The notes under the pieces: generated by a model
Told to the model about the DNA's origin: nothing
What the model saw: only the letters and a program-made list of their open reading frames with translations
The model's database searches: none
Translations under genes and position numbers: made by a program
NCBI GenBank assembly: GCA_016869765.1
Contig: VGES01000009.1
Location: forward strand, 1-64,000
Direction: 5' to 3'
Source of the DNA: Alphaproteobacteria bacterium
Lineage (GTDB): Bacteria > Pseudomonadota > Alphaproteobacteria > SHVP01
DNA: 64,000 nucleotides
Shown: in pieces, positions 1,390 to 34,562 of the stretch
Position numbering within the stretch: position 1 is the stretch's first letter
Layout: every line of letters begins with the position of its first letter

Positions 1390-2321
1390 CGCCCGAAGAC
1401 CTCGTCATCGACGTCCGTGGCCTGACCAAGCGGTTCGGCGATCGCACCGTCGTGCGCGACGTCGCGTTGCGCGTCCGGCGTGGCGAGATCTTCGGGTTCC
1501 TCGGTCCCAACGGCAGCGGCAAGACCACGACCATTCGCATGCTGTGCGGTCTGCTCGAGCCCAGCGCGGGCGAGGGCCAATGCATCGGCTACGACATTCG
1601 TCGCGATACCGCCGCGATCAAGCGCCAGGTCGGCTACATGACCCAGCGCTTCAGCCTCTATGAAGATCTGACGATCCGCGAAAACCTCGCGTTCATCGCC
1701 CGGCTCTATGGCATGAGGGGGCGTCGCGCGGCCGTCGATCGCACCTTGGAGCGGCTCGGGCTCACCGCGCGCCAGCACCAGCCGGCGGGGCAGTTGTCGG
1801 GCGGATGGAAACAGCGCCTGGCGCTCGCCTCCTGTGTCATGCACGAGCCCAAATTGCTGTTGCTCGACGAACCGACCGCCGGCGTCGATCCCAAGGCCCG
1901 TCGCGAGTTCTGGGACGAAATTCATGCGCTGGCGCACGGCGGCCTCACGGTCCTGGTCTCGACTCACTACATGGACGAAGCCGAGCGCTGCCATCGCATC
2001 GGATACATTTTCAATGGGCGCCTTCTCACCGAAGGTTCGGTGGCCGACGTCGTGCGCGACAGTGGCCTCGTTACCTGGAGCGTCGAGGGGGCCTCGCTCG
2101 CCCCATTGCGGGCCCGGCTGAGCGGCCGCGCGGGCATCGACATGGTGGTGCCCTTCGGCGCGGTGCTCCACGTCGCGGGCAGCGACGAGGCCCGACTCGC
2201 TGCGGCAATCGCGCCGTTCCGGGACGATCCCCTGCTCCGTTGGACGCGCAGCCCGGCGACGCTCGAAGACGTGTTCATCCGTTTGATGTCGGCGGCCAAC
2301 GGTGAGGGGGCTCGACCATGA
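1377..2321 (+). CDS. ABC transporter ATP-binding protein (YbhF-like)
   Basis: 314 residues. The ATG at 1377 lies inside the end of the HlyD gene and is preferred over upstream in-frame starts, which only read through the adaptor in another frame. Walker [10 protein letters not shown] is at residues 43-51. The signature LSGGWKQR is the variant usual in YbhF-type ATPases. Walker B is LLLLDEPTAGVDP and the H-loop is STH. A C-terminal domain (about 225-314) ends in a TLEDVFIRL segment common to drug and lipid exporters. Only one nucleotide-binding domain is present, whereas E. coli YbhF carries two in tandem, so a homodimer is expected. The stop overlaps the permease start (ATGA). Confidence 0.92.
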   Translation: MAEVAPEDLVIDVRGLTKRFGDRTVVRDVALRVRRGEIFGFLGPNGSGKTTTIRMLCGLLEPSAGEGQCIGYDIRRDTAAIKRQVGYMTQRFSLYEDLTIRENLAFIARLYGMRGRRAAVDRTLERLGLTARQHQPAGQLSGGWKQRLALASCVMHEPKLLLLDEPTAGVDPKARREFWDEIHALAHGGLTVLVSTHYMDEAERCHRIGYIFNGRLLTEGSVADVVRDSGLVTWSVEGASLAPLRARLSGRAGIDMVVPFGAVLHVAGSDEARLAAAIAPFRDDPLLRWTRSPATLEDVFIRLMSAANGEGARP

Positions 2322-3451
2322 GGTTCTTCGCCTGGGGCCGCTTCGTCGCGATGGTGGTGAAGGAGTTCACCCAGATGCGACGGGATCGCATGACTTTCGC
2401 GATGATGATCGGTCTGCCGCTGGTGCAACTCGTTATCTTCGGCTTTGCCATCAACATGGACCCCAAGCACCTGCCAGCGGCGGCGATCGTCGCCGATGCC
2501 TCGCCGTTCGGACGCTCGATCCTGGGGGCGATGGAGAACTCCGGCTACTTCGCCGTGACTCATCTTGCAACAAGCGAAGCCGAGGCCGACGACTGGCTGC
2601 AACGTGGCAAGGTGCAGTTCGTCGTGTCGATCCCCGCCGACTTCTCGCGGGCGCTGCTGCGCGGCGAGCGTCCCGCGATCCTCGTCGAGGCCGACGCGAC
2701 CGACCCCTCGGCCACGAGCAACGCGATCGCGGCGCTCGAAGGGCTCAATCGCACGGCGTTGCAGCACGATCTGGTCGGCGGCCTCGCCGGCCTGAAATCG
2801 GGGCCGCCGCCCTTCGAGGTGCGCATCCATCGTCGCTACAACCCCGAGGGCTCGACGCAATACAACGTCGTTCCCGGTCTCATCGGCGTCATCCTGACGA
2901 TGACCATGGTGATCATGACGGCGCTTGCCGTCACGCGCGAACGTGAGCGCGGCACCATGGAGGCGCTCTTGGCGACCCCGGTGAGCCCGCTCGAGGTGCT
3001 GATTGGCAAGATCGTGCCCTACATCCTCGTGGGTTTCATTCAGGTCACGATCGTGTTCGTCGTCGCCCGCCTGCTGTTCGACGTACCGATGCTGGGCTCC
3101 TCCATCGTTTTCGGCGCCGTCGTGCTGCTGTTCATTGCCGCCAATCTCGCGGTCGGCATCACCTTCTCGACCGTCGCACGCAATCAGCTCCAGGCGATGC
3201 AGATGGCGATCTTTTTCTTCCTGCCTTCGATCATGCTCTCGGGTTTCGTCTTTCCGTTCCGCGGCATGCCGACCTGGGCACAGGCGATCGGCGAGGTGCT
3301 GCCGCTGACGCATTTCTTGCGCATCGTGCGCGGCGTCATGCTCAAGGGCACCGAGTGGACGCATGTCATGCCCGACGTCTGGCCGCTCGCGGCCTTCCTG
3401 TTGGTCGCGGTAACCATCGCGCTCGCCCGCTATCGGCGCACGTTGGACTAG
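2318..3451 (+). CDS. ABC-2 type permease (YbhS/YbhR-like)
   Basis: 377 residues. One N-terminal transmembrane helix (about 22-42) is followed by a large periplasmic domain (about 45-185) and five or six clustered C-terminal helices (about 186-370) with the family ERERGTMEALLATPVSPLEVLIGK motif region between the first two. E. coli-type systems have two permease genes (ybhS and ybhR); only one is present here, so the transporter probably has a homodimeric membrane part. It is the last gene of the four-gene efflux run. It is followed by 218 bases without a gene before gyrA; I see a candidate gyrA promoter there and no clear terminator. Confidence 0.9.
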   Translation: MRFFAWGRFVAMVVKEFTQMRRDRMTFAMMIGLPLVQLVIFGFAINMDPKHLPAAAIVADASPFGRSILGAMENSGYFAVTHLATSEAEADDWLQRGKVQFVVSIPADFSRALLRGERPAILVEADATDPSATSNAIAALEGLNRTALQHDLVGGLAGLKSGPPPFEVRIHRRYNPEGSTQYNVVPGLIGVILTMTMVIMTALAVTRERERGTMEALLATPVSPLEVLIGKIVPYILVGFIQVTIVFVVARLLFDVPMLGSSIVFGAVVLLFIAANLAVGITFSTVARNQLQAMQMAIFFFLPSIMLSGFVFPFRGMPTWAQAIGEVLPLTHFLRIVRGVMLKGTEWTHVMPDVWPLAAFLLVAVTIALARYRRTLD

Positions 3452-3543
3452 GCGCTTTGCGCCGCCCGGCCGACGGCTTCGCGCTGGTCCCGAAAACGGG
3501 CCGTAAGCCTCTGGGCCAAAACGAAAAATCGGGAGAAAAACAC

Positions 3544-3572
3544 TGGGAAAATCGGCCGTGGCTGGTTATACT
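3544..3572 (+). promoter_or_regulatory. Candidate gyrA promoter
   Basis: TATACT at 3567-3572 matches a sigma70 -10 element at five of six positions. The best -35 at 17-bp spacing, TGGGAA (3544-3549), is weak (three of six). It lies about 100 nt upstream of the gyrA start, in the 218-nt gap after the permease gene. Placement is inferred from sequence alone. Confidence 0.35.
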
Positions 3573-3669
3573 GCCCGGTGTCTTTTCGGCTTGTGGTGAC
3601 CGTCGTTTTCGCAGTTGCGAAATGCTCCGGAGAAGGTCCTGCCGGCCGGTGTAACGCGTTCAACCCATC

Positions 3670-6444
3670 TTGACGATCAGCCCCGACCAAGAAACCCCGC
3701 CGCCTCCGCCGCCGAGCGACCACGTCGCGCCGGTGACGATCGAAGAGGAGATGCGGAAGTCATACCTCGACTACGCGATGAGCGTAATCGTGTCGCGGGC
3801 GCTACCCGACGTGCGCGATGGGTTGAAGCCGGTGCATCGGCGCATCTTGTTTTCGATGCACGAAAACGGCTTCGATTGGAACAAGCCCTACCGCAAGTCG
3901 GCGCGTGTCGTCGGCGACGTCATGGGCAAATACCACCCGCACGGGGACCAGGCGATCTACGACGCCATGGTGCGCATGGCGCAGGAGTTCTCCATGCGCC
4001 TGCCCCTTCTCGACGGGCAGGGCAACTTCGGCTCGATGGACGGCGATCCACCGGCGGCGATGCGTTACACCGAGATCCGCATGGGTCTGCCGGCCCATGC
4101 GTTGCTCGAAGACATCTACAAGAACACCGTCGATTTCCACGACAACTACGACGCCACCGCGCAGGAACCGCTGGTGTTGCCGGCACGGTTCCCCAACCTC
4201 CTGGTCAATGGCGCCAACGGCATCGCCGTCGGCATGGCGACCAATATTCCGCCGCACAACCTGGGCGAGGTGATCGACGCCTGCTGCGCCTATGTCGACG
4301 ATCCCGGTGTGACTGTCGAGGCCCTGATGGAGCTGGTGAAGGGGCCTGATTTCCCGACCGGCGGCACCATCCTCGGGCGATCGGGCATCCGCGAAGCGTT
4401 CCTCACCGGGCGTGGCAGCGTCGTCGTGCGCGCCAAGGTGCATACCGAAGACATCGGTCGGGATCGCGTCGCCCTCGTCGTCACCGAGATACCGTTTCAG
4501 ATCAACAAATCGCAACTCGTCGAGCAAATCGCCGAGGTCGCCCGTGATAAGCGCGTCGAAGGCATCGCCGACCTGCGCGACGAGTCCGATCGCGACGGCG
4601 TGCGCGTCGTGATCGAGGTGCGCCGCGACGTCAATGCCGACGTCGTGCTCAACCAGCTGTTCCGCTTTACCCGCCTACAGACCTCCTTCGGCGTCAACAT
4701 GCTGGCGCTCTCCGGCGGGCGTCCGGGGTTGATGAACCTGAAGGAGCTGGTCGCGGCGTTCATCGATTTCCGCGAAGAGGTCATCACCCGGCGCACCAAA
4801 TTCGAACTCGGCAAGGCGCGCGAACGCGCCCAGGTGCTCGTCGGTTTGGCGATCGCCGTCGCCAACATCGACGAGGTCATCGCGATCATCCGCAAGGCCA
4901 AGGACCCGGCGACGGCGCGCGCGGCGCTGACGTCGCGTGACTGGCCGGCGGCCGACATCGAGCCGCTGGTGGCGCTGATCGACGATCCGAGCCAGCGCAT
5001 CAAGGGCGGCGTGTACCGCCTGTCGGACGAACAGGCCAAGGCCATCCTCGATCTTCGCCTCCAGCGCTTGACCGCCCTCGGGCGCGACGAGATCGCCGAG
5101 GAACTGAAGGGCTTGGCCGAGCGCATCCGCGAACACCTCGAGATTCTCAAGAGCCGCCCCAAGCTGATGGCGATCCTGCGCGGCGACCTGGTCGAGATGC
5201 GCGAGAAGTTCGCGACCCCGCGCATGACCGTCATCGAAGAGTCCTTCGTCGAACACGAAGAAGAGGACCTGATCCAGCGCGAGGAAATGGTCATCACCGT
5301 GTCGCACGCCGGCTATATCAAACGCGTGCCGCTGTCGGCCTACCGTGCCCAACGCCGTGGCGGACGCGGGCGCTCGGCGATGAGCACGCGCGAAGAGGAT
5401 TTCGTCACCAGCGTTTTCGTCGTCAACACCCACACGCCGGTGCTGTTCTTCTCCTCGACCGGTCAGGTCTACAAAATGAAGACCTACCGGCTGCCGCTCG
5501 GTACGCCGCAGGCTCGCGGCCGGCCGATGGTGAACCTCCTGCCGCTCTCCGAAGGGGAAACGATCGGCACTTTGTTGCCGCTGCCCGAGGACGAGTCGCG
5601 GTGGAACGACCTGCATGTGATGTTCGCGACGGCCCAAGGCAACGTGCGGCGCAACTCACTCTCCGATTTCTCGCACATCATGGCGAGCGGCAAGATCGCG
5701 ATGAAACTTGACGATGGTGATCGCATCATCGGGGTGCAGATCTGTCAGGAAGACCATGACATCCTGCTCGCGGCGCGCGGCGGCAAGTGCGTGCGCTTCC
5801 CGGCGAACGGCGTGCGGGTCTTCAAGAGCCGAACCTCGACCGGCGTGCGTGGCATGAAACTGGCCGAGGGCGACGACGTCGTCAGCATGTCGATCGTCCG
5901 CCACGTCAAGGTCGAGATCGAGCAGCGCGAGGCCTATTTGCGTTACCGCAATGCCGTGCGCCGCGGGGACATCACGGATGCCGAGGGCCGACCGCTGGTG
6001 GCGCCGCTCGACGCGGCCGTCATGGCCGACATGGAGCAGAACGAGGAGTTCCTCCTGACGGTCACCGAAAACGGCTTCGGCAAGCGCACGTCGGCCTACG
6101 AGTACCGCATTACCAGTCGCGGCGGCTCCGGCGTGACCAACATCGAGACGTCGGAGCGCAACGGCCACGTCATCGCGTCGTTCCCCGTCGCGAACGAGGA
6201 CCAGATCATGCTGGTCACCGATGGCGGCAAACTGATTCGCATGCCGGTGGCGGACATCCGCATCGCCGGCCGATCGACCCAGGGCGTCACGCTGTTCAAG
6301 ACCGCCGAAGACGAGAAGGTCGTCTCGGTGGCGCGCCTGGCGGAGGGCGAGGACGAGCACGAGGGACGCAACGGCGAATCGGTTTCGGCGGATACCGCCG
6401 TCGACGATGCCGAACCGTCCGAAGGCGAGGGAGACGGGGCATGA
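3670..6444 (+). CDS. gyrA: DNA gyrase subunit A
   Basis: 924 residues, a normal length for alphaproteobacterial GyrA. The N-terminal breakage-reunion domain carries the catalytic tyrosine Tyr133 (AAMRYTEIR), followed by coiled-coil and C-gate regions and a six-bladed C-terminal domain. The GyrA box QRRGGRG identifies it as gyrase A rather than ParC. An extra segment in the C-terminal domain around [16 protein letters not shown] is the insertion usual in Alphaproteobacteria. The start is TTG at 3670; an in-frame stop at 3652 excludes anything earlier, and no convincing Shine-Dalgarno precedes it. The quinolone-contact position equal to E. coli Ser83 is Gln94 ([10 protein letters not shown]), while Asp87 is kept (Asp98). 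The tail is acidic. The stop overlaps coaD (ATGA). Confidence 0.98.
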
Positions 6445-22367: not shown

Positions 22368-23824
22368 CTAGGCGGTGGCCGATTGGCGACCGGCGGCGTC
22401 CTGGCCGGTTCGCCAATGCAAAATCCGTTGGCCGAGCAGGCGGCCGAAGGTCAGCGCCGGGGTGATGCCCATGCCGCTGCAATACGAGCCGCCGTTGAGC
22501 AGCGCGAATCCGAGGATTTCGCCGGCCGCATAGATCGACGGAATCGGTTTGCCATCCTCGCGGATCACGCGGAGGGATTCGTCGACCGCGAGGCCGGCGA
22601 AGGACACGGCCGAAAGGCCGCCGTGCTTCACCGCATAGAATGGTGCGCGCTCGATGGCACGCGGCAGGTGCTGGCGCCCCAAAGCGTCCCGACCGGTCGC
22701 GACCGCCTGGTTGTAGGTGGTGATGGTTTGGCGCAAGACGGGGACCGGCAATGCAGTCCGTTCGGCGAGTTCGTCGATGGTCGCGGCCTGAACGAACGAC
22801 GGGTGACGTTTGGCAAACGCCGCCGCCACCTGATCCTTGCTCAGACGCGCGACGATTCCGTTCGCGAAGAACCACAGCGCTTCATCCGCGATACGTTGAT
22901 CGTAGATGGCCCAAAACGTCAAATCCGGGCGCTGCATGAGCGCGTGTTCTCGATCGTCGACCGAGGGCAAATCCTCGGCCATGAAGCGGCGACCGTCGGT
23001 CGCGACGTAGATCTCCCACGGCAGCCGCGATTGCGGCGTCGTGTCGGTGAACAGGTAGTAGCGTCCCGGTTCTTCGGGGTGCTCGACCGCGGCGAAGCCC
23101 GGGACGAAGTGCTTGCTGCCGCGAACGACGGCGCCGAGGCGACGGGCGAGTTCGATGCCGGTCCCCATCGAGTAGGGGTAGGCACGGCCGAACAGCGGGT
23201 AACCTGGGGTAACTTGGGGAACAGGTCGCGGTTCGCGGCGTAGCCCCCGGTGGTGAGCACGTAGTTGCGACCGACGAAGGGGCGTGCGTTGGCGATCACG
23301 GCATCGATGCCGCTCGAGGTGCCGACGGCGAAGCCTGTCATCTCGTGCCGCAGCAGCAAAGTGATCTTGCCCTCGCGCACCAGGCGCTCGACGACCGGGC
23401 GGATCACCCGGATGACCTCGCGCCCCTTGTCGTGGGCGTAATACGTGCGGGCAATGCGGTAGGGCTCGTGGCCGAGGAAGATCGTCGGAGTCGCCGGATC
23501 GAGTTGGTAGCCCAGGTCGAACAGCCAGTGCATCGTCTCCGCGGCATTGTCCACGGCCAGACGCACCATACGGGCGTTGGCGTTGTCGCGGCTGATACGC
23601 ATCACGTCGTCGAAGTGTCGATCCGGGGAATCGACGATGCCCTTGGCGGCCTGGGCCCGCGTGCCGGCCGCACTCATCTGGCCGCCGGTAACGTGCAGAG
23701 TTCCGCCGATGTCATCGGCGGCCTCGAGCATGAGTACGCGAGCACCGCGCTGCGCCGCGAAAATCGCGGTCGGCAAGCCGGCGGTCCCAGCGCCGACCAC
23801 CACCACGTCGTAGACCGGCTCCAT
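22368..23824 (-). pseudogene. FAD-dependent dehydrogenase, frameshifted
   Basis: The N-terminal part starts at ATG 23824 with the FAD-binding motif VVVGAGTAGLPTAIFAAQRGA and is in frame until about 23213. The C-terminal part, from about 23209 to 22368, is in another frame and ends with AAGEILGFALLNGGSYCSGMG. Removing the shift joins LFPKL to a TPGYPLFGRAYPYSMGTG stretch, exactly where the intact relative at 40037-41533 reads LFPLFSGGYPLYGG. A single missing base in a C/T-rich stretch (23207-23220) explains it. The family is FAD_binding_2 (fumarate reductase/ketosteroid dehydrogenase-like). It may be a real pseudogene or a sequencing indel. Confidence 0.82.
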
Positions 23825-26060: not shown

Positions 26061-26133
26061 GCACTTCGCGTTTCGCGCGATTGACGGGTGGGCAATGCTC
26101 GCCCAAACTGGGACCGAACTCGCAGGAGGAACC

Positions 26134-26382
26134 ATGGTTCGCTTCCTCGGTTTGTTCGGTCTCTTGATACTGGTGGCTTCGACGGCGGGGAACGCGCAAA
26201 CCGCCCCCAGGTTGTCCGGAATACAATGCGCCGGCGGTGAGGTCGCGATATCCAGCGAAGCTTGTTTCGCTGGGATGAAGCCGATCACCATGGAGGAGTA
26301 CGTTCGCCGGTGGGAAGCTGTGCGCAGCATTTCCGCCACGCCACCGCGCAGCGCGCCGGCGCCGGTCCCCCGCCGAGACTAG
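26134..26382 (+). CDS. Small secreted protein with one Cys-repeat unit
   Basis: 82 residues. The start has GGAGGA upstream. A signal peptide (MVRFLGLFGLLILVASTAGNAQT) is nearly identical to that of the following 422-residue protein, and so is the DNA around the ribosome binding site. The mature part is one unit of the form C-x12-C followed by MKPITMEEYVRRWEA, ending in an Ala/Pro-rich tail. The same unit recurs in the neighbour. It looks like a partial duplication of that gene. The function is unknown; export to the periplasm or outside is inferred from the leader. Confidence 0.7.
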   Translation: MVRFLGLFGLLILVASTAGNAQTAPRLSGIQCAGGEVAISSEACFAGMKPITMEEYVRRWEAVRSISATPPRSAPAPVPRRD

Positions 26383-26405
26383 GTTCGATCGCGCAGGAGG
26401 AACCC

Positions 26406-27674
26406 ATGGTTCGATTCCTCGCTCTGTTTGGTCTCTTGATCCTGATGGCCTCGACGACGGGGAACGCGCAAACCACGCCCCCGAAGTCGGTCGAAGGCGT
26501 GACGATCGAGCACAGCGGCGAACGCGACGTCGTCGCCGCCGAAGTTCGCATCAACTTGGCGGAGACGACTCCGTTCGACGTCGTGAACGCGCGTCAGCGG
26601 TTGATCAGCGGCCACTCGCTGTCCCAATTCGGTCAGTTGCGAAACGCCGGGTTGCAGTTGGTCGGGTCGTTCAGTTCGCAGATGATGATCGCCGGCAATT
26701 TCCTGATCACGGTCGATCCGACCTACAGCGATCAGCAGATGCGGACCTGGATCGAGAAGCACTCCGGCATTCGTGAGACGAGCGACATTCAGCCCGGAGA
26801 GAAGGTCGAAAGCGCCAAGGGGCGTGGTCGCCTGGCTCAGCTGAAGGTGGGTTCGGCGTCCTGCGTGTATGGTTATGCGCTTTACGATTTCTCCCAGGCC
26901 CAGAACTTCCTAGACAACATTTGGGATACCTCCCTCGCAATCTTGATGTGCGATCCGAGCGCCACGACCGCGTCGGTCGCCAAGATTCTCAAAGAGGCGC
27001 GGCTCGTCGACCGTGGCACCAACGAAGCGTTGCTCGCATCGCGTCGTCCGGCTGGGGCCCCCGCTGCGGCGGCGCCGGCCAGCCAGCCGGCAGCGGCCAG
27101 GCCCGAGTACTGCACGAACGGCCCGCTGGTGTTCACCGGCGTGGCGTGCAGTGCGTCGATGACCGCCATCACCAAGGAAGAATACGACCGGCGGTTAGTG
27201 GCGGCGCGCGGTTCCTCGACGCCTCCAGCGGCCCGACCCGAGTACTGCACGAACGGCCCGCTGGTGTTCACCGGCGTGGCGTGCAGTGCGTCGATGACCG
27301 CCATCACCAAGGAAGAATACGATCGGCGCTTAGTGGCGGCGCGCGGTTCTTCGACATTGCCGGCGCCGACCGCTCCGCCGGCGCGGCCCAGCACACCGGT
27401 GCCGGCGCCGGCGGGTGCCCGGTATTGCGCCGCCGACGGTCTCGACATCCTCTACGCCACCTACGGTACCTGCCGCCCTGGCGAGCGCACCGTGACGCGG
27501 GCGGAGTACGACCGGCTCGAGGTGGAACGCGAGCGACGAAAGACCGGTGCGGCGTCCCCAACAGGCGGCAGCGTCGAGGAGCGCTTGAGCCGGCTCAAAG
27601 AACTGGTCCAGCGCGGCCTCATCACCGAGCAGGAGGCGGCGACGCGGCGCCAGGAGATCCTCAAAGAACTCTAG
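26406..27674 (+). CDS. Secreted protein with tandem Cys repeats
   Basis: 422 residues, with GGAGGA before the ATG. After the signal peptide (cleavage near GNAQT) comes an unrecognised domain of about 200 residues, then an Ala/Pro linker, two nearly identical 45-residue units (27096-27365) each reading C-x11-C-x6-ITKEEYDRR, a third diverged unit (YCAADGL to VTRAEYDRL) and a C-terminal helical hairpin (SVEERLSRLKELVQRGLITEQEA, SHOCT-like). The Cys spacing suggests one disulphide per unit. It is the second gene of a pair with the 82-residue protein 24 nt upstream. No known family is recognised. Confidence 0.72.
   Translation: MVRFLALFGLLILMASTTGNAQTTPPKSVEGVTIEHSGERDVVAAEVRINLAETTPFDVVNARQRLISGHSLSQFGQLRNAGLQLVGSFSSQMMIAGNFLITVDPTYSDQQMRTWIEKHSGIRETSDIQPGEKVESAKGRGRLAQLKVGSASCVYGYALYDFSQAQNFLDNIWDTSLAILMCDPSATTASVAKILKEARLVDRGTNEALLASRRPAGAPAAAAPASQPAAARPEYCTNGPLVFTGVACSASMTAITKEEYDRRLVAARGSSTPPAARPEYCTNGPLVFTGVACSASMTAITKEEYDRRLVAARGSSTLPAPTAPPARPSTPVPAPAGARYCAADGLDILYATYGTCRPGERTVTRAEYDRLEVERERRKTGAASPTGGSVEERLSRLKELVQRGLITEQEAATRRQEILKEL
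27096..27365 (+). repeat. Two tandem 135-bp in-frame repeats
   Basis: Copies at 27096-27230 and 27231-27365 are nearly identical in DNA and encode 45 residues each, differing by a few third-position changes and a Pro-to-Leu near the end. Such low divergence indicates a recent duplication or ongoing homogenisation, and copy number could vary between strains. Confidence 0.9.
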
Positions 27675-29077: not shown

Positions 29078-30142
29078 TCAGACGAAGGGGGCGTGCGCCG
29101 GGTCGAGCCGGAGGAAATCGTCGAGCATCCGGTTCTTGGCGTCCGCCACGCAGTGGTGGCGGCAATGGGCGGCGGGGTCGAGCGCCGCCAGCCGTTGCGC
29201 CAACTCGGGCGACCGCCAGAAATCGCGGAAGCGTATCTCGCGGACCGATCCGAGGCATCCGGAATCGGTGTAGGCCTTGTCCTGGCAGGTGTAGACGCGG
29301 CAGTCGGCGCCGATCACGGTCAGCAGGTTGGTCATGGCGCAGCGGTGGTAGGGCTTGTCGTAGCTTTCGTCGCTGTCGTGATAGTGATCGACGATCGTGA
29401 AGCGCCCGTCTTCGAGTTCGCGGCAGCTGGCAAGCTCCGCCGCGACCGTCGCGGCGAGCGGGCGATGGTAGGCGTTGTTGGCGGCGCCATCGTCGTGAAG
29501 GATGCAGGGCGACACCTTGACTTGTGCGACGCCGGCGTCTTTGAGTGTGCGCGCCAGATCGAAGAGGTGCGGGGCGTTGTCGGCATCGACGATGATCGAG
29601 GCGCCGACAGTGCAGCGCGGCGCGAGGCGGACGAAGGCGCTCAGGTTTTCGATCACGGTCGCAAACGCGTCCATTTCGACCCCGCGGTAGCGGGCGTAAG
29701 AAGGTCCGTCCCAGCCGTCGATCGAGACCCGCACCCACGTCATGTGGGGGGCGATCATCTGCGCCGTCTTGCCGAGAAGGCGTGAGCCGTTGGTCAGCAT
29801 GCCGAGACGAAGGCCGGCGGCTCCGAGGCGCTCGACGGTCTCGCCGATGAAAGGATAGATGAGCGGTTCTCCGCCGCCAGAGAATGTGACGGCCGCGATC
29901 CCCATGGCGATCAGGTCCTCGACGATCTCGCGCATCTTTTCGCGCGGGATGCGGTCGCGTTCGACCATGCCCGATCCCAAACTCAAGTCGGGCTTGCGGT
30001 AGGCGCAGAAGTAGCAGGCATGGTTACAAACGTTGGTCGGCTTGATTCGCACGTGAACCGGAGCGGGAACGCGACCTTGGCCGATCACGGCGAGACGATC
30101 GCCATAGGCGAACGCCTTCAACGAGGAATAGATGTGCGACAT
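29078..30142 (-). CDS. Radical SAM protein with SPASM/twitch-like C-terminus (1)
   Basis: 354 residues. The cluster motif CNHACYFCAYR (C-x3-C-x2-C) near residue 39, the GGGEPL loop and the GASIIVDADN strand define a radical SAM TIM barrel. The C-terminal region has extra cysteines (HRCAMTNL, DCRVYTCQDKAY, SGCLGS, HCRHHCVADAKN) suited to auxiliary iron-sulphur clusters. The ATG at 30142 is preferred; the open frame further upstream is antisense to the DUF1194 gene. The substrate is unknown and no precursor peptide gene is visible nearby. It lies between hisS and a DUF1194 gene on the same strand. Confidence 0.88.
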   Translation of the reverse strand: MSHIYSSLKAFAYGDRLAVIGQGRVPAPVHVRIKPTNVCNHACYFCAYRKPDLSLGSGMVERDRIPREKMREIVEDLIAMGIAAVTFSGGGEPLIYPFIGETVERLGAAGLRLGMLTNGSRLLGKTAQMIAPHMTWVRVSIDGWDGPSYARYRGVEMDAFATVIENLSAFVRLAPRCTVGASIIVDADNAPHLFDLARTLKDAGVAQVKVSPCILHDDGAANNAYHRPLAATVAAELASCRELEDGRFTIVDHYHDSDESYDKPYHRCAMTNLLTVIGADCRVYTCQDKAYTDSGCLGSVREIRFRDFWRSPELAQRLAALDPAAHCRHHCVADAKNRMLDDFLRLDPAHAPFV

Positions 30143-30234
30143 GCGCCCTCTTCGATCGGGTGAAGCGTGCGCCGGCATGGTTAAGGCGGGGTAAACGGGA
30201 GTCGCGGCTGCGACGGAGTCGCGGCGCTGAGGGG

Positions 30235-30978
30235 TCAGCGCGCGGCGTGGCGGGAATTGCCGGTGGGCGTCTGGTCGGCGATTTCGAGGATCAGCTTGCG
30301 CGCGACGGCGTCTGCGAAATTGCGGTTGGTCTCGGCGACGATCACGAAGGCCCCGTTGCCGCCGATGATGTCGCGACCGAAGTGCTCTTCCAGCGAAATG
30401 CCGAAGCGCGTTCCGCCGGGCCGGCCGCTGCCGGCACGATGGATGGCGAGGCCGTTGATGGTGATGCCGGCGTTGAGCGCAAGCGCACGGGCTTCGGGAA
30501 GGGGGACTCCCCCGAACTGGCCGCCGTCGGCCGAGACGTCGATGACCTTGCGCGCCGAATCGATGTGGTTGCCGAGGATCATTCGGGTCGAGGCAACGAT
30601 GGCATTCGAGATCGAATTGAAGCCGTAGGCCTTGCGCGGAGCGGCGAGCAAGGCGGCCGCGAAACGTTGGGCGGCCTCGAGGCCGTCGATGATGGTCCAG
30701 TCGACGATCACATGCTGGGACTCTGCGCCTCCCCATTCGATCATTGCGACCGCGATCCGGCGTTGCGGCCCTTCGAGGATGGCGTCGAGCACACGCCGGC
30801 TGGTGATCGCCGCAGCGTAACCTTCGCGTTGTAGGCGTAGTTCATCCTCGTCGATCGAGCCCGACCCGTCGGCGGCCAGAACCAGTTCGAGGTCGACCCG
30901 CTGCGGCTGGGCCGTCGCGGGCAAAACGAGGAGGGACAGGAGGAAGGCGAGGGCGAGGCGGACGAGCGCACGCGGCAT
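30235..30978 (-). CDS. DUF1194 (vWA-like) secreted protein
   Basis: 247 residues. A signal peptide ends near PATAQP (residue 24). The following VDLELVLAADGSGSIDEDE contains a D-x-S-x-S MIDAS-like motif, and RKVIDVSADGGQFGG matches the conserved DUF1194 DVSGDG-type strand. The family resembles von Willebrand factor A domains and should bind a divalent metal in the periplasm; its partner is unknown. A GCTAGC-type -10-like sequence lies only a few bases upstream of the start. Confidence 0.88.
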   Translation of the reverse strand: MPRALVRLALAFLLSLLVLPATAQPQRVDLELVLAADGSGSIDEDELRLQREGYAAAITSRRVLDAILEGPQRRIAVAMIEWGGAESQHVIVDWTIIDGLEAAQRFAAALLAAPRKAYGFNSISNAIVASTRMILGNHIDSARKVIDVSADGGQFGGVPLPEARALALNAGITINGLAIHRAGSGRPGGTRFGISLEEHFGRDIIGGNGAFVIVAETNRNFADAVARKLILEIADQTPTGNSRHAAR

Positions 30979-31087: not shown

Positions 31088-31163
31088 GAGCGCGTAGCTC
31101 AGCTGGTAGAGCACGTGACTTTTAATCACGGGGTCCTGGGTTCGATTCCCAGCGCGCTCACCA
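31088..31163 (+). tRNA. tRNA-Lys (anticodon TTT)
   Basis: 76 nt with encoded CCA (31161-31163). The acceptor stem GAGCGCG (31088-31094) pairs perfectly with CGCGCTC (31153-31159). The anticodon stem is CGTGA/TCACG (31114-31118, 31126-31130) with the loop CTTTTAA, putting TTT at 31121-31123. The D arm (TAGCTCAGCTGGTAGAGC) and T arm (GGGTTCGATTCCC) are canonical. Its 3' end overlaps the stop codon of the convergent radical SAM gene. Confidence 0.98.
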
Positions 31164-32129
31164 CTCCCCGAAGTCTTGCTTTGCATAGGCGACGCACGCC
31201 TCGCAGACGGTGCCGCGGACATTCTTCGCAAGATGGGCGGTGCGCAACGCCTGGAACCGGGGGCTTTGCCAGGCCGTCATGAATGATTCCTGGGTCAGGT
31301 CGCCCATGTGAAATCGGCCGTCGTGATCGAAGCAGCAGGCCGATAGCTTGCCATCCCAGGAGATATGGCCCTCGGTGAAGAGGGCCCAGCAGGGCAGGGG
31401 CTCGCGCAACGCACCGATGCGTCCGCGGTTGCCGGGTGTGACCGACCAGGCCCGCCCCACGGCCTCCTGACCGACCAAGTCCGCCTGGTTGTAGAGCGGT
31501 AGGGCGTAGATCTCGTCGACCAGCGGGCGCACGCGCTCGACCAGGTGCTGCATACGTTCGCGCTGCGGGCCATCGTAGAGGATGTAGGACGCATAGAGGC
31601 CACAAGCGTACTTGCCCGAATCTCGCACACGCTTCGCCCACTCGAGGTTGCGCAGCATGTCGTCGAACAGCGAGGCCTTCACGCCGGCGATGGCGGTGAA
31701 CTGGGCATCATCGGCGTAGTTGACCGAGAACTTGAGGGAATCGAGGCCCGCCGCCATGCAGGCTTCGACGCGCTCGGGCGTCGCCAGCGAACCGTTGGTT
31801 GTGAGAAAAACATAGGGAAACCCGATCTCGGCCTTGGCGAAACGAATCGCCTCGGGCAGCCAGGACACGAGAAAGGATTCGCCCAGGTAGAACAATCCGA
31901 TCTCTTCCACCCCGTCGCGGCGGAGCCCGCGCAGCAGGCGCTCGAACAATGGTCGATCCATGTCGCGCTGCTCGCGCAGGCGAAACGAGCGGGCGCAGAA
32001 CGCACAAGAAAAATTGCACCGGGCGGTCAATTCGATTTTGACCGATCTCGGGCACGGCGGCGCGGGCATCCGGAAATCTGGCGGGATGGCCGTGATGGCG
32101 TCGATGCGCTGGGTGATGGTGTTTGCCAT
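31158..32129 (-). CDS. Radical SAM/SPASM protein (2)
   Basis: 323 residues from ATG 32129; upstream in-frame starts lack a ribosome binding site. The motif CNFSCAFCARS (C-x3-C-x2-C) near residue 35, FYLGESFLVSWLPEAI, TTNGSLATPERVEA and KFSVNYADDAQF outline the radical SAM barrel. The C-terminal SPASM-like region has ISWDGKLSACCFDHDGRFHMGDL and CEACVAYAKQDFGEW, as in sugar, peptide and antibiotic-modifying SPASM enzymes. The stop codon (31158-31160) lies inside the 3' end of the opposing tRNA-Lys gene. The function is unknown. The 168 nt upstream, before the protease gene, contain nothing I can name. Confidence 0.88.
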   Translation of the reverse strand: MANTITQRIDAITAIPPDFRMPAPPCPRSVKIELTARCNFSCAFCARSFRLREQRDMDRPLFERLLRGLRRDGVEEIGLFYLGESFLVSWLPEAIRFAKAEIGFPYVFLTTNGSLATPERVEACMAAGLDSLKFSVNYADDAQFTAIAGVKASLFDDMLRNLEWAKRVRDSGKYACGLYASYILYDGPQRERMQHLVERVRPLVDEIYALPLYNQADLVGQEAVGRAWSVTPGNRGRIGALREPLPCWALFTEGHISWDGKLSACCFDHDGRFHMGDLTQESFMTAWQSPRFQALRTAHLAKNVRGTVCEACVAYAKQDFGEW

Positions 32130-32297
32130 GGTTCCCCAAGGATTCCGGCATAACGACGGTCGCGTTCGCCGCCCCATCAAATCGACTTGCCATGATACCG
32201 CCCTGATCTAGCGCAATTCTCTCACGCGTCGGTTTCGGCTCGACCGTGTCCGGCAGGCGCCTTAGGTTTCACCCGTACAACAAACGAGGGGGTTCTG

Positions 32298-34562
32298 GTG
32301 GGGGAGCATCCTTGGAGGCCAGTTGGCGTACGTGCCTTGGCCGTCTCGCTGATCACCGCCGTGTTGGTCGCCTGTGGCGGTGGGGGCGGGGGTGGTGGCG
32401 GCGGGAGCAGTTCGTCGTTCAACACGGCCGAGTTCCAGGCGAACTACGCGCTCGGCAAGGTCAACGCCTTGACCGCTTACAACAACAACGGCACCGGCGC
32501 GGGCGTGACGGTGGCGGTCGTCGACACGGGCATCGATCAGAATCACACCGAGTTCTCGGGCCGTATTTCGGGGTCGTCGGCGAGTGTCGTCGGTGGAACC
32601 GTCCAGGACACCAATGGGCATGGGACGCAAGTGGCCGGCCAGATCGCTGCCAATCGCAACAGCACCGGCATGCACGGCATTGCGTTCAGCGCCACGATCC
32701 TGGCAATCAAGGCCGGCACCAGCACGACGTTCCTCGACAACGATATCGCCGCGGCGATCGATCTCGCGCGCACCAACAACGCGCGGGTCATCAACCTGAG
32801 CCTGGGTGGCACCGGAGGCGTCAACGCCACCCTCCAGACCGCGCTTCAGAACGCCGTCAACGCCAGCATCATCATCGTCGCGTCGTCGGGCAACTCCTTT
32901 TCGGCGCAGTCGGAATTTCCGGCACGCCTGGCGAATTGCACCGGCGGCGGCGGCGTGTGCAACGGTTTCAACGCCCAGGGGCGCATGATTGCGGTCGGCG
33001 CCGTCGACTCGAACAACGCCGAAGCCTCGTTCAACAGTCGCGCCGATGACACAGCGACAGCCTACCTCGTGGCACCTGGCGTCAGTGTTTTGACGACCCA
33101 ACTCGGTGGCGGCACGACGACCGTGAGTGGTACGTCGTTCTCCTCGCCGCTCGTGGCGGGCGCGGTGGCGATTATCCTGCAGCGTTTTCCGACCTTGACG
33201 ACGGTGCAGGCGGTGAACCTGCTTTTCACGTCGGCCACCGACCTCGGCGCGGCAGGCACGGACACCATCTTCGGCCGTGGCCTCCTGAATTTGCAGGGCG
33301 CCTTCAACGCCCAGGGGCTGTCGTCACTGCCCACCGGCAGCACGAACACGGGTTCTTCCGTGCCGGTCGGCGATTCCCAGGTGAAGCTCGGGTCCGCCTT
33401 CGGCAACGCGCTCGCCAGCCACGCGTTCCTCGGCGCTGTGATTGCGCTCGACGGCTTTCAGCGCCCTTACCTGCTCGATCTGCGCGGACGAGTCGAAGGA
33501 TCGAGCCCCGATCTCGGGTTGCGGGGCTTTCTCGCGGTCCCGAGTACGCGGACCGTGACGACGACAGCGCCCGGGGGTCTGCAGTTCTCGGCGCAAGTGG
33601 GCGAAACGCCGGCCAACGATCTGCTGCGTGAGCGTGCCTATCGGTTCGGCGCCGATGGGCGACAGAATCCGGAACGGGACGAGAAAGTCGAGGCCGTGTG
33701 GTTGAGCGCGCCCCTCGGCGAGCGGGCTCAGATGGCATTCGCGTCCAATCACGCCCCAGCCGCGATCATGAGCGATGTCCTCGGGCTTTCGGCCCGCGAG
33801 GGCGCGCCCGGGTCCGAATTCTGGTTTGCGCCGCAGCTCAGCCTGCTCGATCGCGGCGATGGTATCGCGGCCTACGGCTGGCTCGGCGCGAACTGGCGTT
33901 TCGGTTTCGGCGTGATGTCCTCGGAGCGCGATGAGCTCACCGGCACCGGCGGCGGGTCGCTCAGTCAGGTCGCGGTCGGTTACCGCGCCTGGCCGAACGC
34001 CGAACTCGGGCTCGCCTATGGCCAGGTGGTCGAGCCCGACTCGATGTTTCGCTCGAACTCGTCGGGCGCGTTCGGGTCGATTGGCGGCGCCGACAGCCGC
34101 TTCGCGACGTTCAGCCTCGATCTCACGCTCGACGCCAAGACGAGCTTGCAGTCGAGTTGGAGCGAAGTCCGGATGGCGCCGGAACCCGGGACGACGGGCT
34201 ATCTGAGCAACTGGGGTGATGTGCGGGCCAATTCCTTTGCGCTCGGACTCACCCGTCGCGATGCATGGCGAGCGGGCGATCGTCTCTCGCTTACCCTGGG
34301 ACAGCCGCTGCGCGTGACGGACGCCAAGGCGGACGCAACGTTGCCTGTCGCCGCTGACGCGCTCGGCCACATCTACTACGAAACGCGACGCATCGATGTC
34401 GTTCCGACGGGCCGTGAGATCGATCTACAGGTCGCCTATCAGATTCCGCTCGCCGATCGCCTCAATCTCTCGTCGTTCGCTACGATCGCGCGCGAACCGG
34501 GTCACGATCCCGCCGCGTCCGTTGGTTTCGCGACCGGCGTGCGCGTCAACCTGAAGTTCTGA
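32298..34562 (+). CDS. NalP-like subtilase: lipoprotein with autotransporter-like barrel
   Basis: 754 residues from GTG 32298. The leader ends in the lipobox LVAC with Cys26, followed by ten glycines (27-36). The S8 protease domain has the triad Asp76 (VVDTGID), His108 (NGHGTQ) and Ser280 (GTSFSSP). After a linker near residue 355, about 400 residues of alternating beta structure end in Phe (GVRVNLKF), as in outer-membrane autotransporter barrels. A lipidated subtilase fused to a translocator is the layout of neisserial NalP, which processes other surface proteins. Surface location is inferred. The small lipoprotein gene downstream is coupled by a TGATG-type overlap. Confidence 0.87.
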   Translation: MGEHPWRPVGVRALAVSLITAVLVACGGGGGGGGGGSSSSFNTAEFQANYALGKVNALTAYNNNGTGAGVTVAVVDTGIDQNHTEFSGRISGSSASVVGGTVQDTNGHGTQVAGQIAANRNSTGMHGIAFSATILAIKAGTSTTFLDNDIAAAIDLARTNNARVINLSLGGTGGVNATLQTALQNAVNASIIIVASSGNSFSAQSEFPARLANCTGGGGVCNGFNAQGRMIAVGAVDSNNAEASFNSRADDTATAYLVAPGVSVLTTQLGGGTTTVSGTSFSSPLVAGAVAIILQRFPTLTTVQAVNLLFTSATDLGAAGTDTIFGRGLLNLQGAFNAQGLSSLPTGSTNTGSSVPVGDSQVKLGSAFGNALASHAFLGAVIALDGFQRPYLLDLRGRVEGSSPDLGLRGFLAVPSTRTVTTTAPGGLQFSAQVGETPANDLLRERAYRFGADGRQNPERDEKVEAVWLSAPLGERAQMAFASNHAPAAIMSDVLGLSAREGAPGSEFWFAPQLSLLDRGDGIAAYGWLGANWRFGFGVMSSERDELTGTGGGSLSQVAVGYRAWPNAELGLAYGQVVEPDSMFRSNSSGAFGSIGGADSRFATFSLDLTLDAKTSLQSSWSEVRMAPEPGTTGYLSNWGDVRANSFALGLTRRDAWRAGDRLSLTLGQPLRVTDAKADATLPVAADALGHIYYETRRIDVVPTGREIDLQVAYQIPLADRLNLSSFATIAREPGHDPAASVGFATGVRVNLKF

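Follow-up and report, generated by a model that had tools for sequence, protein, structure and literature searches.

A two-cysteine repeat unit of adjacent exported alphaproteobacterial proteins has relatives in other genera

Two neighboring genes in an alphaproteobacterial genome encode exported proteins, P0001 and P0002, that carry one and three copies, respectively, of a short unit with two cysteines. Is this unit a peculiarity of the pair or a domain in wider use, and what might it do? The unit is real, extends beyond this locus, is absent as a whole from the family libraries we searched and is of a familiar kind; its function we infer.

The locus and its repeat unit

The window, by which we mean the whole stretch of 64,000 nucleotides analyzed, comes from contig 9 of a 3.99-Mb genome. 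P0001 and P0002 follow each other with a gap of 23 bases, and both begin with an export leader, recognized by eye. Ala/Pro linkers carry the three units of P0002.

Table 1 Features of the P0001–P0002 locus (window positions)
Feature	Position	Strand	Remarks
Ribosome-site and leader segment, copy 1	26100..26208	+	AGGAGG at 26124-26129; duplicated families D2, D3
P0001	26134..26382	+	82 aa, exported; leader, one Cys unit, Pro-rich tail; GC by codon position 0.60/0.58/0.75
P0001 Cys unit	26206..26337	+	C32, C44, ITMEEYVRR
Ribosome-site and leader segment, copy 2	26371..26480	+	AGGAGG at 26395-26400; duplicated families D2, D3
P0002	26406..27674	+	422 aa, exported; leader, N-terminal domain, three Cys units, SHOCT-like C-terminus
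P0002 leader peptide	26406..26468	+	Cleavage after GNA, judged by eye
P0002 N-terminal domain	26472..27041	+	One Cys pair (C153, C182); no convincing relative
Tandem 135-bp pair	27086..27355	+	95% identical
P0002 Cys unit 1	27090..27218	+	Predicted mini-domain, three strands and one helix
P0002 Cys unit 2	27225..27353	+	Protein sequence identical to unit 1
P0002 Cys unit 3	27405..27545	+	Divergent: C-x14-C-x6-VTRAEYDRL
SHOCT-like helical hairpin, P0002 C-terminus	27579..27662	+	PF09851 below curated cut-off; pLDDT about 90

An earlier note on this DNA had given the coordinates, the lengths of 82 and 422 residues and the 135-bp tandem repeat, all of which we recover; repeat detection places 2.0 copies of the 135-bp unit at 27091-27355, with 95% identity. 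That note wrote the unit as C-x11/12-C-x6-ITxEEYxRR, once in P0001 and three times in P0002. These copy numbers hold, but the third unit of P0002 departs from the formula both in its cysteine spacing and in its helix motif. A profile of the unit run against the window's genome returns the four places in P0001 and P0002 (E 1.9e-23 to 6.9e-20), and the next-best matches reach only E 0.08 and 0.43. Similarly, a permissive regular expression written for the unit matches once in P0001 and three times in P0002, as against means of 0.0 and 0.0014 on residue shuffles of the two proteins (5000 shuffles each).

Leaders and ribosome sites had been described as common to both genes, and indeed the leader segments are 87% identical in DNA over 77 nt and the 34 nt preceding them 79% identical. 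The recent duplication proposed on this basis is borne out, as judged by DNA identity, for the leader/ribosome-site segment and for units 1 and 2 of P0002. It does not extend to the unit that the two proteins share, which is old: the P0001 unit and the units of P0002 have just 60-66% DNA identity. Units 1 and 2 differ by five nucleotide changes and no amino-acid change in 40 codons, a stretch whose start was picked after the differences had been seen and in which two of the five changes share one codon; a simple simulation puts the chance of this outcome at 0.0014. Extending the comparison to all 44 codons brings in a single amino-acid change, A to P, which lies in the linker. At the protein level, units 1 and 2 are under constraint.

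This constraint bears on whether P0001 and P0002 might be a non-functional recent expansion, its frames open through high G+C alone. The window does hold many spurious open frames, a scan of the locus that is blind to other promoter types finds no promoter or terminator consensus, and no relative of the N-terminal domain of P0002 was found. Yet the G+C of P0002 by codon position (0.62/0.54/0.81) resembles that of known genes, ribosome sites and leaders are in place, units 1 and 2 lack amino-acid change in the 40 codons, and related units occur elsewhere. We regard a non-functional pair as extremely improbable.

The N-terminal domain of P0002 has five matches beyond itself in 385 genomes of the class (E 0.005-0.027); four were read and look unrelated, and the fifth, L074, was left out of the reading. 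A resemblance to L005, a paralogue in the same genome with which the domain shares a Cys pair, is not significant, since 52 of 500 shuffles score as high, and we make no claim of it.

Several other genes of the window are worth recording. An HbpS-like haem-degrading gene lies on the opposite strand about 1.7 kb from the P0001/P0002 pair. A FAD_binding_2 gene at 22368-23824 is seemingly split into overlapping minus-strand frames (22919-23824 and 22368-23168), which suggests a frameshift or an assembly error; the domain assignment comes from a scan of the second half of the split gene only. At 32298-34562 on the plus strand lies the gene for a 754-aa protein that combines a subtilase (Peptidase_S8) domain with an extended C-terminal region; by eye, this region may be an autotransporter barrel. 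A radical SAM/SPASM protein is encoded at 31158-32180 on the minus strand, and a second radical SAM-like frame (by eye) at about 29078-30736.

Relatives of the unit and their architectures

A three-row profile searched against 385 genomes of the class returned a Rhodospirillaceae protein with repeated units, P0003 of genome G203. Among 115 relatives of G203, three genomes match (G203, G390 and G394), all of one genus, g176; they are three of the six genomes of that genus and three of the 22 of the order. The window's own order has units in one of 10 genomes, that being the window's own. An 18-row profile, apparently run on the same class sample, listed 13 of the 385 genomes at E up to 0.05, of which three were counted (G000, G203 and G345, the last an addition to the three-row result); eight further rows were dropped from the table alone as partial matches, four of them with stops. 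Among 225 relatives of G345, two genomes were accepted, G345 and G203, with the weak matches G185 and G195 left out, and G345 stands alone among the seven genomes listed for its genus. A phylum-wide sample of 398 genomes yielded the window's genome only, and the 21 genomes listed all belong to one class. The distribution of the unit is very patchy. A unit-profile search, which the earlier note had proposed, places relatives in genus g176 and in G345; these relatives in other genera, like the SHOCT-like C-terminus of P0002, had no place in that note, and single-copy orthologues without the repeat did not appear in the searches made.

Whole P0002 had no convincing relative in genome contigs or plasmids; neither did P0002 from unit 1 onward, or the P0001 unit, in phages. 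Searches with P0004 against plasmids, phages and viral contigs, with the P0005 units against plasmids and viral contigs, and with P0003 against viral contigs turned up no relative. Plasmid matches to P0003 fall mainly on its SAM domain (residues 280-333) in the best 20 of 140 records, although some of these matches start in or close to unit 3 (residues 234-255). In the best 30 of 361 plasmid records for P0005, it is the protease part that is matched.

Profiles built from single lineages recover the units of the others. The G203-genus profile finds P0002 (2.8e-16), P0005 (1.3e-7) and P0001 (E 0.0019, the weakest cross-lineage link that we accept); the window profile finds P0004 (6.9e-16), P0003 (1.7e-10) and P0005 (2.2e-7); and the P0005 profile finds P0002 (6.7e-10), P0004 (3e-8), P0003 (3.2e-4) and P0001 (4.2e-4). 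All these E-values were computed against about 20 target sequences, and the best shuffled protein reaches E 0.31. Comparison of the lineages by hhalign gives probabilities of 91.9-96.6% and scores of 29.6-40.2, whereas none of the 100 column shuffles made for each pair scores above 17.4. Because single-lineage profiles recover the other lineages and shuffled controls do not, the units of the three lineages form, on sequence grounds, one homologous family. The second Cys and the start of the helix account for part of the similarity, and this motif also arises by chance, as in L079, by eye a DNA ligase-like frame; conservation between lineages extends to unit sequence beyond the cysteines. Since relatives occur in other genera, the unit is better seen as a mobile mini-domain than as a peculiarity of P0001 and P0002.

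Counting intact frames only, there are 24 units in eight proteins, and within genus g176 the number per protein ranges from one to seven. Besides the single unit of P0001 and the three of P0002, P0003 has three units and a C-terminal SAM domain (60.3 bits), G390 C293 two units and a C-terminus that looks SAM-like by eye, G390 C619 one unit and MORN repeats (46.2 bits), G394 C71 three units up to the end of its contig, P0004 seven units and a short tail, and P0005 of G345 four units between a lipobox (by eye) and a protease domain (Trypsin_2, 83.9 bits). The frames of the relatives start, by eye, with an export leader or, in P0005, with the lipobox. A resemblance of P0003 to DUF4189 is below significance (E 0.1). 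P0003 (L046:6001-7002, plus strand) has a divergently oriented neighbor, P0007 (L046:4587-5663, minus strand); both are exported SAM proteins, with the SAM domain N-terminal in P0007 and C-terminal in P0003, and the two might partner each other through these domains.

Several candidates were kept out of this count. L075 (G326:C32:6198-6260), in an exported-looking 551-aa frame, has a unit-like half that lacks the first Cys (E 2.5e-4); the G203-genus profile supports it (2.3e-7) and the other two lineage profiles do not, so that it is, from its sequence, a possible degenerate member. L020 of G253 was dropped: it is just half of a unit, in what is probably an antisense frame. L038 and L040 are fragments that lack an intact frame; the two G390 matches outside the counted proteins are fragments. 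On G390 contig 619, L097 (about 1582-3915) combines a unit fragment with SHOCT (34.6 bits), lacks a start codon and lies 2.2 kb from the MORN-plus-unit gene; it is perhaps the remnant of a second unit protein. Beside P0004 lies P0006 (L095:119-1750, plus strand), an exported protein of 544 aa with a bacterial SH3 domain, pentapeptide repeats and, near its start, a unit-like stretch seen by eye (YC...C...ISQEQY), which the profiles score no better than shuffled sequence (E 0.45, 0.83 and 1.4); in phages, its pentapeptide part is what the best 5 of 460 records match.

Predicted fold and proposed role

AlphaFold modeling of one 43-residue unit, based on six aligned units from the window and L046, gives a mean pLDDT of 86.8 and a pTM of 0.60. 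The predicted elements are E6-9, E13-16, E25-27 and H29-41, with the helix beginning at the IT-x-E-E-Y motif. Whole P0002, modeled with no alignment, yields a poor model (mean pLDDT 48.9) in which each of the three units repeats these elements and the C-terminal SHOCT-like hairpin has a pLDDT of about 90. With a unit pTM of just 0.60 and a pLDDT of 48.9 for whole P0002, the flexibility and geometry of the P0002 linkers are guesses drawn from models. Foldseek against the PDB gives six matches at E up to 10, the best at 6.3 and none below 0.001; VIA-align places 0 of 11 chains at a Z of 2 or more; and no viral structure model matches under E 0.9. The lack of a PDB match in so small a domain is no proof of a new fold.

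Each unit in P0001-P0005 has exactly two cysteines, and Cys totals are even in all unit proteins checked. Two invariant cysteines per unit, together with the nearby HbpS-like gene, might point to binding of metal or haem or to redox activity. However, two cysteines are all that a unit offers, with no invariant His and no CxxC, their spacing ranges from x11 to x19, and the possible relative L075 lacks the first of them; such a role is very improbable.

We favor, at a probability of about one in two, a reading of the unit as a mini-domain, uncatalogued and probably pinned by a disulfide, that acts as a binding bead which exported proteins can carry in several copies. It would be an extracytoplasmic domain of about 38-43 residues, in which a Cys-bearing β-hairpin is followed by a third short strand and a helix at IT-x-x-EY, the two cysteines most likely being joined by a disulfide formed in the periplasm. 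One to seven such beads, on flexible Ala/Pro or Ser/Lys linkers, would be joined to varied partner domains. P0002 would then be an exported protein in which three beads and the SHOCT-like helical hairpin come after the N-terminal domain; P0001, probably encoded on the same transcript, would be a bead on its own. The beads most likely bind to a repeated component of the cell envelope, be it protein, peptidoglycan or another glycan, with their copy number tuning avidity. The disulfide, the envelope ligand, the role in avidity and the link between P0001 and P0002 are the steps that we infer.

The same arrays could also be passive, each unit a rigid, protease-resistant spacer between N-terminal and C-terminal domains, bound to no ligand and multiplied in tandem by replication slippage; this and descent from SHOCT, taken up below, are the chief alternatives. 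The tandem 135-bp copies, the widely differing copy numbers and the position of the P0005 units between lipobox and protease domain fit such spacers. Nevertheless, P0001 is hardly more than one unit, P0004 consists of seven units and a short tail, and conservation between lineages extends beyond the cysteines; we therefore consider spacers unlikely.

The binding-bead reading can be carried further, into tentative ground that we think possible but doubtful. The units may define a new promiscuous extracytoplasmic family of alphaproteobacteria, a disulfide hairpin with a SHOCT-like helix in fast-changing arrays, which tethers protease, SAM, MORN and SHOCT proteins to a common envelope ligand, P0001-like single units competing for or capping that ligand. 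Whatever its role, exported proteins whose architectures are otherwise unrelated have this 40-residue unit, confidently folded in prediction, in common, and the P0002 array beside single-unit P0001 offers a simple system for questions of ligand and copy number.

Comparison with known families

No model in Pfam, NCBIfam, PHROG or PADLOC spans the whole unit. The units of P0001 and P0002 have no match in Pfam or NCBIfam, those of P0003-P0006 nothing significant in NCBIfam, and PADLOC no match at all. The PHROGs give one weak match (E 0.0022) between P0002 residues 234-258, in unit 1, and phrog_33860, a phage protein family without known function. A unit profile found nothing convincing among PDB sequences (best E 0.14), and we found no description of the unit among the open-licence PubMed Central papers listed. 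The earlier note recognized no family, and no existing family covering the unit came to light in these libraries; among the other unit proteins, PF24243 and SHOCT touch the helix half alone.

P0004 scores 30.7 bits against Phage_tail_C (PF24243) over the whole protein, above the curated cut-off of 23.7, through the helix half of its units. The match leaves out the Cys hairpin, its best stretch covering profile positions 2-15 of 26, and we do not assign the unit to this family, which has no match in P0001, P0002, P0003 or P0005. A link to phage tail-fiber assembly, raised by PF24243 and a weak fold match (rank 4, E 1.5), is unsupported; by eye, the Mu U and P2 G proteins have no such unit.

SHOCT (PF09851) is matched over its full length (positions 1-28) by P0002 residues 392-419, with E 1.8e-4 and 21.5 bits against a cut-off of 27. 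The genome encodes other SHOCT-tailed proteins, among them C49 and C41 (SHOCT-like, under the cut-off) and C64 (above it). For the Cys unit itself, no full 28-position match exceeds 27 bits: P0001 gives no score, P0003 13.7 bits and P0004 17.4 bits, the best stretches lying on profile positions 14-26. Because the P0003 and P0004 matches are partial and below 27 bits, we do not place the unit in SHOCT.

Could the unit nonetheless be a divergent SHOCT that kept the second helix and replaced the first with a disulfide hairpin? The weak matches on the helix half of P0003 and P0004 would fit, as would the adjoining unit fragment and SHOCT in L038, and the start of the unit helix aligns to 12-14 columns of the second SHOCT helix, each of four unit alignments scoring higher than every one of its 60 column shuffles. 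Set against this, hhalign probabilities are just 7.5-56.9%, the hairpin half is unlike SHOCT, and a motif as short as the helix-capping IT-x-E-E could have converged. SHOCT also lacks conserved Cys (PMC3581485, Eberhardt et al. 2013). Descent from SHOCT is, in our judgment, quite unlikely. In the same paper, the discoverers of SHOCT proposed oligomerization or nucleic-acid binding and found oligomerization unsupported, so that SHOCT offers no ready function for the unit.

A parallel in role to the proposed binding bead may be YARHG, described as a small extracellular bacterial domain, likely of four helices, for which peptidoglycan binding was proposed (PMC3355149). The likeness of the two is one of role only. 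SHOCT is among the nearest likenesses in kind: it is, like the unit, very short and promiscuous, with many partner domains, and its second helix resembles the unit helix that starts at IT-x-E-E, whereas the unit has a Cys hairpin, three short strands and an internal and tandem placement. Short promiscuous domains of this sort are found late, being missing from model organisms and falling under the cut-offs of profile libraries, and a family model of the unit would annotate the proteins described here.
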